Below, one piece after another: positions 5,859 to 54,432 of a stretch of DNA of 64,000 nt. The notes beneath the pieces were generated by a model, which was not told the DNA's origin, ran no database searches, and was given only the letters and a program-made list of their open reading frames with translations. The number at the start of each line of letters is the position of its first letter. Positions within the stretch are counted from its first letter, which is position 1. The translations under genes and the position numbers were made by a program. Location of the stretch: NCBI GenBank assembly GCA_947168815.1, contig CAMVNG010000001.1:124001-188000 (forward strand), written 5' to 3'. Source of the stretch: an uncultured bacterium. Its GTDB lineage: Bacteria > Patescibacteriota > Gracilibacteria > Absconditabacterales > Absconditicoccaceae.

Positions 5859-6455
5859 ATGGATCTTTACTACATCATTGCGACTCTGTTCGCTATCGTG
5901 TCCCTTTGCATTGTATACAATGGCTTAAGGACAAAGGAAAATCCTGAAGTTATAGGAGGAATTGGCTGTCTTTCACTAGCTGCCACTCTTGCTATACTCA
6001 GGTTCTTTGAGTGTTATATAGTTATTGCTGTTGCATTCATTCCAATAGGTCTGATTGCAACCACTCTCGCAACCGCATGGTGGTCATTTGAAAAGGATCA
6101 AGAGAAAAAGGACTATCTCTCCCCTATCTTCTGCCTAATTGGAGGACTAGTATGCTACTGGGGATTTGCACAAGCATTTTATCTTGGGAACCACCATTTC
6201 CTGTTCCTTGCAAGCACCATCATCCTCACTCTAATCCATTTTGGATCTACATTCTATGGATTCTTCCATAACATGAGGTACACTTCTGCAGTATCAACCA
6301 TATTCTTAATCTGGATTATACTCTATTATTGGAAGGCTGTATCTTTCATTAATATAGATATATTCTTCGTATGGATACTGTTCGCTATTGCAATGGCAAC
6401 TCTGTTAATGGTCGTTTGGAGACTCGGATGGGGAGAAGAGAAAAAAAGCACTTAA
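5859..6455 (+). CDS. hypothetical multi-TM membrane protein (TGA-free orphan)
   Basis: 198 aa, several hydrophobic segments, 13 Gly all GGN, TAA stop, -35/-10 TTGATT-17-TATAAT upstream, intrinsic terminator downstream. Confidence 0.8.
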   Translation: MDLYYIIATLFAIVSLCIVYNGLRTKENPEVIGGIGCLSLAATLAILRFFECYIVIAVAFIPIGLIATTLATAWWSFEKDQEKKDYLSPIFCLIGGLVCYWGFAQAFYLGNHHFLFLASTIILTLIHFGSTFYGFFHNMRYTSAVSTIFLIWIILYYWKAVSFINIDIFFVWILFAIAMATLLMVVWRLGWGEEKKST

Positions 6456-7062: not shown

Positions 7063-7794
7063 TTACTTCAAGAGATTTTCAAAGTCCGCATCAACAAAGA
7101 CCTCCTTTTCCACATCAAGACTCTCAATATATGGAGTCTGATTTTTGATAAGAAGAGACCAAAGTCTCAAGGCTGGTATCCTATCAAGGAAAGCTTTTGC
7201 CTCCTTCATGTCAGATACCGTAATTCCTCTGTTAAAAGAGACATGAAGTTCGCCAATAACATAATTGTTTGTCTTTGCCCACAGTTCAGTTATCTTCGAA
7301 TAATGAGCAAGAAGAACGAACATAACAAGTCCTGAGTTAACAATGAGCGGAATGCCAAGAAGTTCCGTCGGAGTATTGATACTAATCTCAAGCGAAGGAT
7401 GACGAGTTAGAGGCTCATGACTTAAAAAGTCTTCTGTTTCCTGACTCTCGATACAGCCAAACTGACGGAAGATAAACTCAGTAGGATCATCCTTCTTCAT
7501 CAAAGAAAATCCAAACTGATTATCACCCAACATCAACTGCTCAACCAGGTGAGAAATAGAATTCAAGGGGACACCATCCTTTGCAATTCTCAACTCAGAG
7601 TCAGAAAGTTCTCCGAACCATTCCTTCATGAAATCAAACTGATCCAACAAAACACCCTTGTGATTACCAATAAATGGCAAAGCCCTAAACGTCTTATCAG
7701 ACCACACTTCAAACTGGAAAGATAGCGTACGAGTTTTGTTCTCTTCTTGACCGCCATCAATCACTTCCTTAAATAATTCACATAACTGTTTCAT
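7063..7794 (-). CDS. hypothetical protein (TGA-free orphan)
   Basis: 243 aa, about 13 Gly all GGN, TAA stop; AAAAACAAATG at start codon. Confidence 0.8.
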   Translation of the reverse strand: MKQLCELFKEVIDGGQEENKTRTLSFQFEVWSDKTFRALPFIGNHKGVLLDQFDFMKEWFGELSDSELRIAKDGVPLNSISHLVEQLMLGDNQFGFSLMKKDDPTEFIFRQFGCIESQETEDFLSHEPLTRHPSLEISINTPTELLGIPLIVNSGLVMFVLLAHYSKITELWAKTNNYVIGELHVSFNRGITVSDMKEAKAFLDRIPALRLWSLLIKNQTPYIESLDVEKEVFVDADFENLLK

Positions 7795-21721: not shown

Positions 21722-22108
21722 ATGAAGTGTATAGAAAAGAAAGTTTACAAACGTGATTCTCGACTACGTGCAATTCTCTTTTCAATAAAAGAATCTGCCG
21801 AAAAGAATCGAAAAGATCCTGATATGCAGGAGGATAACTCCTACATTGATGAGTTTTACAGAAATGCATATATCCCATATGCAAACGAACTTGATTTACT
21901 AGTTTCTTCTATCTCATTTTACACCCTCTTCTGCAGAAAAATCACCACAAATGAAAAGAACGTAAAAAAAGTTTTCACGATATGTGATATACTTGAAAAA
22001 TACGGACATTTCAATATCTGCACTGCTAAAAGGTTAAAGAACATTGAAGAAGAATTGCTAAGTGAATTTGAGGATTTCAAAGAACTAACTATCCTCAAAA
22101 ACAAGTAA
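21722..22108 (+). CDS. hypothetical protein, 128 aa (TGA-free orphan)
   Basis: ORF with upstream TTGAAA-17-TAAAGT and A-rich leader; downstream hairpin ACTAGTAGTCG-TTTC-CGATTACTAGT. Confidence 0.7.
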   Translation: MKCIEKKVYKRDSRLRAILFSIKESAEKNRKDPDMQEDNSYIDEFYRNAYIPYANELDLLVSSISFYTLFCRKITTNEKNVKKVFTICDILEKYGHFNICTAKRLKNIEEELLSEFEDFKELTILKNK

Positions 22109-22207: not shown

Positions 22208-22603
22208 TTAAGCTAATTTTCTAAGATTCTCGCACAATGATTGAGCTACATAAATACTCCTATCATTTTCAGTTTCACACTCGAACAAAACACCATAAAT
22301 CGGTGACTTATCCATAACGGCATCTGACTGATTACCCCTGACAATCACACTCATACTACCATGAGAAGAAGTATCAATAACTCTCAATACCTGATAAAAA
22401 TCATCATAAAAGCTTACCCACTGAGCATGAACCTTCGAAAAAGAATCACAAAGATGTTCACAAGAACACACATTGGCATTCCAAGCGGCCAAGATCATTT
22501 CATCAACCTTTAAATCGCTTTTACAATCAGCGATTGAAGAAAAAAGTAATGAAATCACCCTATAAAAGGGAATCTGAGATTGAAAAACATGTTTTATTTC
22601 CAT
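22208..22603 (-). CDS. hypothetical protein, 131 aa (TGA-free orphan)
   Basis: MEIKHVFQSQIPFYRVISLLFSSIADCKSDLKVDEMILAAWNANVCSCEHLCDSF...; TAA stop; own terminator. Confidence 0.7.
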   Translation of the reverse strand: MEIKHVFQSQIPFYRVISLLFSSIADCKSDLKVDEMILAAWNANVCSCEHLCDSFSKVHAQWVSFYDDFYQVLRVIDTSSHGSMSVIVRGNQSDAVMDKSPIYGVLFECETENDRSIYVAQSLCENLRKLA

Positions 22604-46381: not shown

Positions 46382-47152
46382 ATGAAAAAACTCTTTACAC
46401 TTAGTCTACTTTGAGTAGCAGGATTATTCTCTTTCGCTGCTCTACCTACTTTTGCTCAAGAAGCAGAAGAAATCGATGCAGACACTGATGTAGCTATTTT
46501 AGATGAAGCTACAGATGATGCTATCGTACCTGAAGAAGAAATCCCAGTTGAAGCTGAACCTTCAATTGAGGATGCAATCACAAGTGATCCTGAAATGGTT
46601 TCTGAATTAAATGGTATTGCAGATGAAATGCTTAACGCATTCGACGATCAAGAACTTACAGACTCATTTAATGCTCAATTCGAAACAGATGAAGAAAGAG
46701 CTCTAGCTACAGCTGGACTTGCTTTCCTATTCGCTGGAGCATGACTAATGTATCTTATTGTTGGTCTTATTTGGCTTATCATCGTAGTAATTGCTTTATG
46801 GTGTATATTTAAAAAAGCTTGAAGATCTGGATGGCTAGCATTAATTCCTATCTATAATCTATTCGTATTATGGAATGTTGCAGGATTGAAAAAATATCTT
46901 TGGACTATCTGGTTATGAGTTTTAATCTCTATATGTGCTGCTGCATTAAAAGAAGGAATGGAAGGAACAGGAGGAGAAATCGCTGAATATATCGATAAAT
47001 TCTATTGGTTAGTTCTTTCAGTATGGATGAACGTATGCTTAGCTAGAAAGTTTGGATGGAAGACATTCGGACAAGTTATGTGTGCTATTTTCTCACAAAT
47101 TTGTTACTTAATCCTTGGATTCTGAAGTGCTGAATATAATAAAGACGCATAA
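46382..47152 (+). CDS. secreted/membrane protein with DUF5684-like TM domain
   Basis: Signal peptide MKKLFTLSLLGVAGLFSFAALPTFAQEAEE; acidic linker; GRSGWLALIPIYNLFVLWNVAGLKKYLWTIW and VCLARKFGWKTFGQVMCAIFSQICYLILGFG. Confidence 0.75.
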
Positions 47153-47211
47153 TTAAAACAGTATTCAAATAAAAAGAAGATTCTCTGAAAACGAGAATCT
47201 TTTTTTATTAT

Positions 47212-47243
47212 AAAAAAGCTGAGAAGATAAAATATCTCCTCAG
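47212..47243 (-). terminator. intrinsic terminator after 47265-47564
   Basis: Minus strand CTGAGGAGATA-TTT-TATCTTCTCAG-CTTTTTT (11-bp stem with one G-U). Confidence 0.8.
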
Positions 47244-47264
47244 TTTCCCAGTGTTGTATCTCTT

Positions 47265-47564
47265 TCAACCAAAAACTTCATGAAGAACAGCATTAACTGA
47301 TCTATTCTTCCTCTCAAAGTTTTTAGTCAGAGGTGCTGCACCATCCTTCTCAACAATGGTTATCGTTACCCAAAGTGGAGTAACCTCAAAATGGACACCA
47401 CGAATTCGTTCAACAGGACAGCCACTACACCACTCCTTCATAAGGATACCTCCTTTGACCTTTGGAAGATTCTCCCCCTGAAAAGAATAATACACACTAC
47501 GGCCATAATCTACATATGTGTAGTTCAAGGCCTCATTCCAATTGTTAAATACTTTTTTAAACAT
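47265..47564 (-). CDS. hypothetical protein, 99 aa, apparently terminated by TGA (TGA-free orphan)
   Basis: MFKKVFNNWNEALNYTYVDYGRSVYYSFQGENLPKVKGG...HEVFG-TGA; next in-frame stop (TAA) lies in the U-tract of the terminator; TTGACA/TATAAA promoter at 47598-47627. Confidence 0.7.
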   Translation of the reverse strand: MFKKVFNNWNEALNYTYVDYGRSVYYSFQGENLPKVKGGILMKEWCSGCPVERIRGVHFEVTPLWVTITIVEKDGAAPLTKNFERKNRSVNAVLHEVFG

Positions 47565-47597
47565 AATTGTATTTGTTTTTCTTTTTTATTTTCAAGC

Positions 47598-47627
47598 ATT
47601 TTATATCCTTATTGAAGCCAATGTCAA
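47598..47627 (-). promoter_or_regulatory. sigma70-type promoter for 47265-47564
   Basis: Minus strand TTGACA (47622-47627), 16-nt spacer, TATAAAAT. Confidence 0.6.
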
Positions 47628-47824: not shown

Positions 47825-49030
47825 ATGAATCTTGATGCATTAGAAGCTCTATACGGATGTAAAAAAGAAGATAAAAATGAATCATTATCTAACAAAGAAA
47901 TTTTTGCTGAAGAGCCACTAAATTACGAAGAAGAAATTACAATAACAGAAACCAAAGAATACGTTCCTGAAGTTTTTCCATACGAAGACACAATTCAAAA
48001 CCTCAACGAAAATTATACAATTGAAAATAATATTTCACAAAGCAATATAACAGTAACCACAGAACCAGAAGCTGGTGTTTGTACAGTTGCAATTACACCT
48101 ACTCCTACTGTACAAAACAATTTAGGACAAATAATTGAGGATATAAAACTTCCTACTCTACCAAAACTTAGTTTTCCAAAGTTTAATTTTCCAAAATTTC
48201 AAACTCCAAAATTTAATTTCAAAAGACTCTCTTTTTGAAAAATAAAGATTATATCAGAATTAAAAATATTAATAATTCTCTTCTTTACTGTTTTTTCAGC
48301 TTTTTTCTTCTTCACAAATGCAAAATTAGTTCTAATAACAGTAAATGACGTTATTGGAACAAATGAAGAAACAGATTCAACAAACATTATTGAGGATTTT
48401 GAAGAACATTCTACAGCTGAAATTACTATGGATAAACAAGAAAAATTAATGGCATTGGAAGAGAACTTTGAAAATCTAAAAAAGAATCAGAGAGAAAAAC
48501 AAGAGATGACATTAAATATGCAAGAATTTCTTGATCAAAAACAGGAAACACATGAACTAAACTTCAATATTTTACCACCTACAAACAGATTAATAATTCC
48601 AGACTTAAACGTTAATATTCCACTTATCGATATTCCTGTTATCTGAGAAGCTGATTTCGAAAATGAAAATTTTGAAGAAGAACTTACCCAAGGTGCTGTA
48701 AAATATCCAACTACAGCTACTCCATGAGAACAAGGTAATTCTCTTATCTTCGGACATTCTTCTACAGAATGGTGGAAACATAACGAATATTGATTTGTTT
48801 TTAGAAATCTACCAAGACTTCAAGCATGACAAAAAATTCAAGTAATCTGGAACGGACAATTATATACCTATGAAATGATTGAAAGAAAAGTAGTTTTACC
48901 AAAAGAAGTAGAAAGTTATTATAATGAATTTCAAAAAGATGGAGAAAGTTACTTAACATTAATGGGTTGCTACCCTATAGGTTCAAATGCAAAAAGAATG
49001 ATGGTTGTAGCAAAAAAAATTAATAACTAA
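47825..49030 (+). CDS. sortase-family transpeptidase with long N-terminal cytoplasmic/acidic region
   Basis: Code-25 401 aa; TM LKILIILFFTVFSAFFFFTNAKLVLI; VKYPTTATPGEQGNSLIFGHSSTEWWKHNEYGFVFRNLPRLQAGQKIQVIWNGQLYTYEM...SYLTLMGCYPIGSNAKRMMVVAKK (His/Cys/Arg). Confidence 0.88.
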
Positions 49031-54048: not shown

Positions 54049-54432
54049 ATGCGTATGAATAATTATCACGTTGTCGTAGAACTCGACGAAAAAGGAAAAC
54101 GCAATGTCGGAAAAATCATCGACATTATGGAAAAAAGAAAGTTTGCTTTCAAAGAAAAAAAAGATCGAATTCTTGAGCCGGGGCTAAGAAGAGAGACTAT
54201 CGAACTTGAATCAAAAACCAGAAGCCAACGGTTCCTTGACCCTCTCAAAACAAAGTATGCAAAGAATAAACTCGAGAAAATGCTACAACACTTTATCTAC
54301 AACCACACAGATCTCATATTCGAAACAGATCGCCCAATTGTGGATGTTGAAGGTGTAAAAGCATTCATCTATCTCAACGTTTATCCAAGCAACAAGAAGC
54401 CTCCAATTATTTGTGTCTATAAAGAAGATTAA
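54049..54432 (+). CDS. hypothetical protein, 127 aa (TGA-free orphan)
   Basis: MRMNNYHVVVELDEKGKRNVGKIIDIMEKRKFAFKEKK...; TTGCAT-17-TAAAGT and AAAAACAAAT upstream; terminator at ~54465-54497. Confidence 0.7.
   Translation: MRMNNYHVVVELDEKGKRNVGKIIDIMEKRKFAFKEKKDRILEPGLRRETIELESKTRSQRFLDPLKTKYAKNKLEKMLQHFIYNHTDLIFETDRPIVDVEGVKAFIYLNVYPSNKKPPIICVYKED

Follow-up and report, generated by a model that had tools for sequence, protein, structure and literature searches.

The window analyzed here, 64,000 nucleotides of contig C1 of a bacterial genome of 1.29 Mb in 18 contigs, contains a small gene that raises the question of how a TGA codon can close a reading frame in a bacterium that reads UGA as glycine (genetic code 25). 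The first-pass annotation had described a 99-aa ORF ending in ...HEVFG-TGA, and this description is accurate; the gene lies on the minus strand. Its features and those of similar genes in the window are summarized in Table 1.

Table 1. Features of the 99-codon gene, its neighbours and other class genes of the window
Feature	Position (strand)	Properties
Gene	47564..47265 (-)	ATG at 47564; 99 codons to 47268; then TGA 47267-47265
Coding region	47268..47564 (-)	99 aa; Gly codons GGN only; GC 0.394 (genome gene median 0.305)
Promoter	47598..47627 (-)	TTGACA-18-TAAAAT
Leader motif AAACAAATAC	47569..47578 (-)	directly 5′ of ATG; common to the class and the G014/G015 orthologues
TGA	47265..47267 (-)	TAG/TAA at the same position in orthologues
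Code-25 extension	47208..47264 (-)	18 codons past TGA, plus TAA; overlaps the terminator; no counterpart in relatives
Intrinsic terminator (hairpin and U-tract)	47212..47243 (-)	such a hairpin just 3′ of the stop in relatives
Second terminator hairpin	47177..47201 (-)	on the + strand serves the convergent DUF5684 gene
Convergent neighbour	46382-47152	DUF5684 membrane protein; has TGA-Gly codons
Divergent neighbour	47825-49030	sortase (PF04203); has TGA-Gly codons
Class gene	5859..6455 (+)	198 aa; 13 GGN / 0 TGA; GC3 0.41; TAA; terminator
Class gene	7063..7794 (-)	243 aa; 13 GGN / 0 TGA; GC3 0.40; diverged G015 orthologue likewise TGA-free
Class gene	21722..22108 (+)	128 aa; GC3 0.33
Probable class gene	22208..22603 (-)	131 aa; GC3 0.29
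Class gene	54049..54432 (+)	127 aa; GC3 0.38; leader AAACAAATAC

UGA decoding and the end of the gene

The genome bears the marks of code 25. RF2 is absent, the single class-I release factor of the whole genome being RF1 (TIGR00019, 458.7 bits, cut-off 423; TIGR00020, 277, cut-off 370), a tRNA-Gly(TCA) with the anticodon UCA is encoded, and TGA is common as Gly (57% of Gly codons in stretches of this genome totalling 464 kb). A tmRNA match is also present. Since RF1 occurs without RF2 and tRNA-Gly(UCA) is available, UGA should mean glycine to the genome's own ribosomes, in this gene as elsewhere, and no known factor here would terminate at it. Context-dependent decoding of UGA had been considered in the first-pass annotation; the analysis gave no pointer to machinery for it within this cell.

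Read in code 25, the frame would gain G-KRYNTGKLRRYFIFSAFL and run on to the next in-frame stop, the TAA of 47210-47208, where the gene's own terminator ends; the overlap with the terminator had been noted before. The terminator is real: the stem-loop at 47243-47219 (CTGAGGAGATA-TTT-TATCTTCTCAG, then CTTTTTTATA) has a folding energy of -17.6 kcal/mol, with a z-score of -4.9 relative to shuffled sequences. The TAA lies 9-11 nt past the stem, so it would be partly or wholly missing from most terminated transcripts. The non-stop mRNA predicted earlier is thus likely but not absolute, because transcripts that read through would be ended past the TAA by the second hairpin.

No TGA is used as Gly in the coding part of either the 99-codon gene or its four relatives; the only TGA is the terminal one. 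Given the genome's share of TGA among Gly codons, the exclusive use of GGN upstream of this TGA has a chance of ~0.001. The family is present in five code-25 genomes, with gene order partly kept. The four relatives, all from code-25 genomes of the same order (mostly draft assemblies, parts of which were sampled), show 43%, 37%, 27% and 29% identity, and their genes end in AFK-TAG, AFK-TAA, VFEF-TAA and IFE-TAA at the place homologous to VFG-TGA, the nearest relatives stopping with TAG and TAA. Members of the genus carry the same kind of terminator 3′ of their stop codons. The alignment of orthologues, which the first-pass annotation had proposed as a check, therefore puts the four protein ends at the position of the TGA. 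Judged by this comparison, the TGA marks the true end of the gene, because relatives that use code 25 stop there with TAG or TAA, and the earlier view of a gene that looks standard-coded is borne out. The 99-aa protein has no Pfam match over the cut-off, and no similar solved structure was found for its confident structure model (pLDDT 85.5).

A class of genes free of internal TGA

The 99-codon gene is a member of a class: small genes, orphans for the most part, each with its own promoter and terminator. The class is characterized by raised GC3, an A-rich AACAAATA leader and the absence of internal TGA. A search of the genome, also suggested in the first-pass annotation, yielded many further GGN-only genes, several of them with TGA just before a terminator. 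Genes with high GC3 are mostly short, and the A-rich leader is clearest as AACAAATA 5′ of ATG, with variation among lineages. ACAAA precedes 31 of the 40 class genes in a hand-pruned list for this genome; among native genes whose upstream region is free, AACAAA has a frequency of 6.5% (three genomes).

Class promoters follow CTTGAA-N18/17-TATAAT; their boxes equal the native ones, while the spacing is mostly 18 bp versus 17 bp in native promoters. A Bacteroidota-type promoter was rejected, as a two-box model converges on TATAAT in both class and native sets. Shine-Dalgarno sequences are rare in native genes, and GGAGGT occurs in some class genes (of G002, and in the acyltransferase of G015 and G034). 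The 16S 3′ tails (L088-L091, i.e. G002, G001, G039 and G014) lack CCTCC (CCACCATTCTAATC in G014, CTACCATTCTAATT in G039). Several dense clusters of class genes lie at C1:7-75 kb of G000, a possible variable island that is partly collinear with C22 of G015. A class-gene cluster of G015 includes a GGN-only thymidylate synthase (PF00303; L113:8731-9639) with the code-11 stop TGA.

Class lists built from code-11 ORFs include some spurious ORFs and are free of TGA by definition, which makes them circular as evidence of TGA avoidance. For this reason, frames were also defined by the leader only, and GC3 bins were computed under code 25. In three genomes of the genus, 50 code-25 frames start at an ATG with AACAAATA in front of it. 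TGA was absent from 31 of these, nine were native genes with a chance motif or doubtful frames, and the remaining ten, including the 99-codon gene, contained TGA solely within the final 17% of the frame, at ≥83% of its length (P ~2e-8 under uniform placement). In the GC3 bins, TGA made up 49-58% of Gly codons at GC3 <0.30 and 2-12% above this value.

The stops of 89 leader-bearing class genes (a set selected by its leader, whose frequency there is thus no evidence) are TAA in 52, TAG in 23 and TGA in 14 cases, with median distances to the terminator of 14.5, 16.5 and 17 nt, respectively. Back-up in-frame TAA or TAG codons are not enriched downstream of TGA in these genes, and of the 11 TGA-ended class genes for which a hairpin was recognised, five would yield non-stop messages under code 25. 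TGA is exchanged with TAA or TAG in 6/16 near-full-length class pairs. Besides the family of the 99-codon gene itself, exchange was found in four others, which have TGA in one member and TAA in another at homologous ends: families of 105 aa (69% identity), 93 aa (83%) and 99 aa (71%), and an acyltransferase (66%). Among 286 native pairs there was no clean case of such an exchange and one ambiguous case. At conserved Gly sites of class pairs, 0/93 codons are TGA and 56 have changed among GGN codons, versus 58% TGA in natives.

Chance or base composition was rejected as the cause. GC at fourfold sites is 0.23-0.33 in the class versus 0.06-0.08 in native genes, and a value of ~0.3 alone cannot remove all TGA. 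A gene for a PIN-PhoH protein (PF13638 and PF02562; 438-531 aa), detected in 17/49 genomes of the order and, at E≤1e-40, in none outside the order within the same taxonomic class, provides a further probe. Of its 473 Gly codons one is TGA, and this one lies in a copy interrupted by a stretch of N, so that no credible case exists in the 17 genomes. In nine TGA-rich genomes, 0/237 Gly codons of PIN-PhoH are TGA, while RecA of the same genomes has 170. Two of these PIN-PhoH copies have a GC3 of 0.16 and 0.20, in the native range, and the avoidance of TGA is thus separable from composition. The PhoH tree groups largely by genus, although congruence is not full. Across the order, the TGA share of Gly varies strongly among genera (RecA, 0 to 26 TGA). 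High expression was also rejected: the strongly expressed native genes for EF-Tu and S12 have a low TGA share as well (6% and 14%, respectively), but their GC3 is as low as in other native genes, unlike that of the class.

Evidence against recent import, and possible translation elsewhere

A recent import of the gene from code 11, proposed in the first-pass annotation, was not supported. In G014 and G015, class orthologues are flanked by native orthologues whose order is shared in three blocks, and one block contains the 99-aa family; in G034 and G039 the neighbours of the gene are conserved, and the copy of the present genome lies ~6 kb away from a shared neighbour. Absence from the syntenic place, the sign of an import, was found in none of these four relatives. 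The synonymous divergence tau is 0.18 for the class orthologues of G014 and G015 versus 0.19 for natives with <70% protein identity. Conserved gene order and native-like synonymous divergence speak against recent import, as do the spread of the family over five code-25 genomes and the TAG and TAA stops of its nearest relatives. Since class orthologues in synteny with native neighbours swap stops and have no TGA at conserved Gly sites, recent import is not enough to explain them. Phage origin was rejected as well: ten class-family proteins have no PHROG match, and pattern-based searches of limited reach found no relatives of the 99-aa family among phages, on viral contigs or in other genomes. 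A DapD-like gene of G002 (G002:C1:111625-112467, minus strand; GC3 0.73, 31 GGN Gly codons, Shine-Dalgarno GGAGGT, TGA end before a terminator) is likely a recent import into a code-25 genome.

From the observed class, with its leader, TGA avoidance, stop exchange, terminator placement and orthologues in conserved order, we infer selection for translation elsewhere, in a standard-code host. Within class genes UGA is never used for Gly, and UGA, UAA and UAG are interchangeable at the end; the class behaves as if read by ribosomes provided with RF2 and devoid of tRNA-Gly(UCA). Expression in the host is favoured because the nearest ribosomes of that sort would be those of the host. That this chromosomal class evolves as if UGA were a stop, and is kept by selection because it is translated where UGA terminates, most probably in a standard-code cell that serves these epibionts as host or prey, is a proposition for which we consider the scales about level. 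We offer more tentatively, and with some doubt, a more specific form: members of the order would maintain standard-code genes in a chromosome where UGA is Gly so that these can be expressed in host or prey cells of standard code, to which they would be transferred as nucleic acid, not as protein. The genes would reach that cell as DNA or mRNA through a putative delivery route; translated inside the epibiont, the 99-codon gene would yield either a protein longer by 18-19 residues or a message without a stop, to be resolved by tmRNA. Vampirococcus, a related bacterium, lives as a predatory epibiont and has been proposed to import DNA from its host (PMC8080830). Class promoters are near the native consensus apart from their spacing, so transcription in the epibiont is likely, which counts against host expression. 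The leader differing between lineages, the TGA-poor EF-Tu and S12, imports of the DapD type and the PhoH tree also weigh against it.

It is also conceivable, if unlikely, that hosts, phages or plasmids using or tolerating the standard code form an exchange pool that repeatedly supplies class genes, whose donor codons and TGA stops are kept with no function in another cell. Class-type genes include those for thymidylate synthase, NDK and PhoH, types that phages frequently carry. The foreign-looking composition of the class, its clusters in variable regions, its mostly orphan proteins and the DapD gene with its TGA stop fit such a pool, whereas the collinear native flanks in G014 and G015, a synonymous divergence equal to that of fast natives, the TGA-free PhoH at native GC3 and the fruitless phage and PHROG searches do not. 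Code-11-compatible phages of these bacteria have been reported (PMC10746230), and a pool could mimic part of the pattern.

An ordinary native gene, in which TAA or TAG mutated to TGA and a protein longer by 18-19 residues is tolerated with UGA read as Gly, would agree with the decoding machinery, with the TAA available at the end of the terminator and with the TAG and TAA of the nearest relatives. This would leave the missing internal TGA, the leader class and the exchange in four further families unexplained, its stop would sit at the terminator's end, and the 286 native pairs offer no clean parallel; we regard it as improbable. Still less probable is a special decoding state of the epibiont in which charged tRNA-Gly(UCA) is scarce during class translation and ribosomes stall or stop at UGA, to be dealt with by tmRNA. 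The link of PhoH-type genes to starvation, the presence of tmRNA and the native-like promoters with altered spacing speak for it; this state, however, is unobserved, lacks a second release factor and does not account for raised GC3. A sequencing or assembly error at the TGA is scarcely credible: the locus comes from a single assembly, but the same pattern recurs in independent genes and genomes.

If translation in a standard-code host is correct, the class would provide a sequence signature for genes acting across cells in uncultured epibionts and would illustrate the way in which a parasite with a changed code copes with a host that has the ordinary one. Whatever the cause, code-25 gene calling alone misplaces the C-termini of class proteins.

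Comparison with known systems

ArfA of E. coli and BrfA of B. subtilis are made as non-stop messages. As in the 99-codon gene, a terminator precedes the in-frame stop; in contrast to them, the relatives of the 99-codon gene have their stop 5′ of the terminator, and no link of sequence or function with them is apparent. No earlier report of such a class was found in the literature searched, and we know of no description of a lasting chromosomal gene set that follows another genetic code than the rest of its genome.

Code-11-compatible phages are predicted to infect Gracilibacteria and Absconditabacteria, and TGA-free phage genes have been linked to moves between recoded and standard hosts (PMC10746230). 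Like the class, these phages have no in-frame TGA and are readable in both code 11 and code 25. However, these are genomes of phages, in which TGA stops are mostly avoided, whereas the class genes are dispersed over the chromosome in conserved order, have a leader in common and can end in TGA. In Vampirococcus lugosii, 126 horizontally acquired genes have been inferred (PMC8080830). Acquired genes of Absconditabacteria resemble the class in their foreign-looking codon usage, the DapD gene of G002 being such a case; the class differs from them in that its order is conserved and its synonymous sites are near saturation, and still it gains no TGA.
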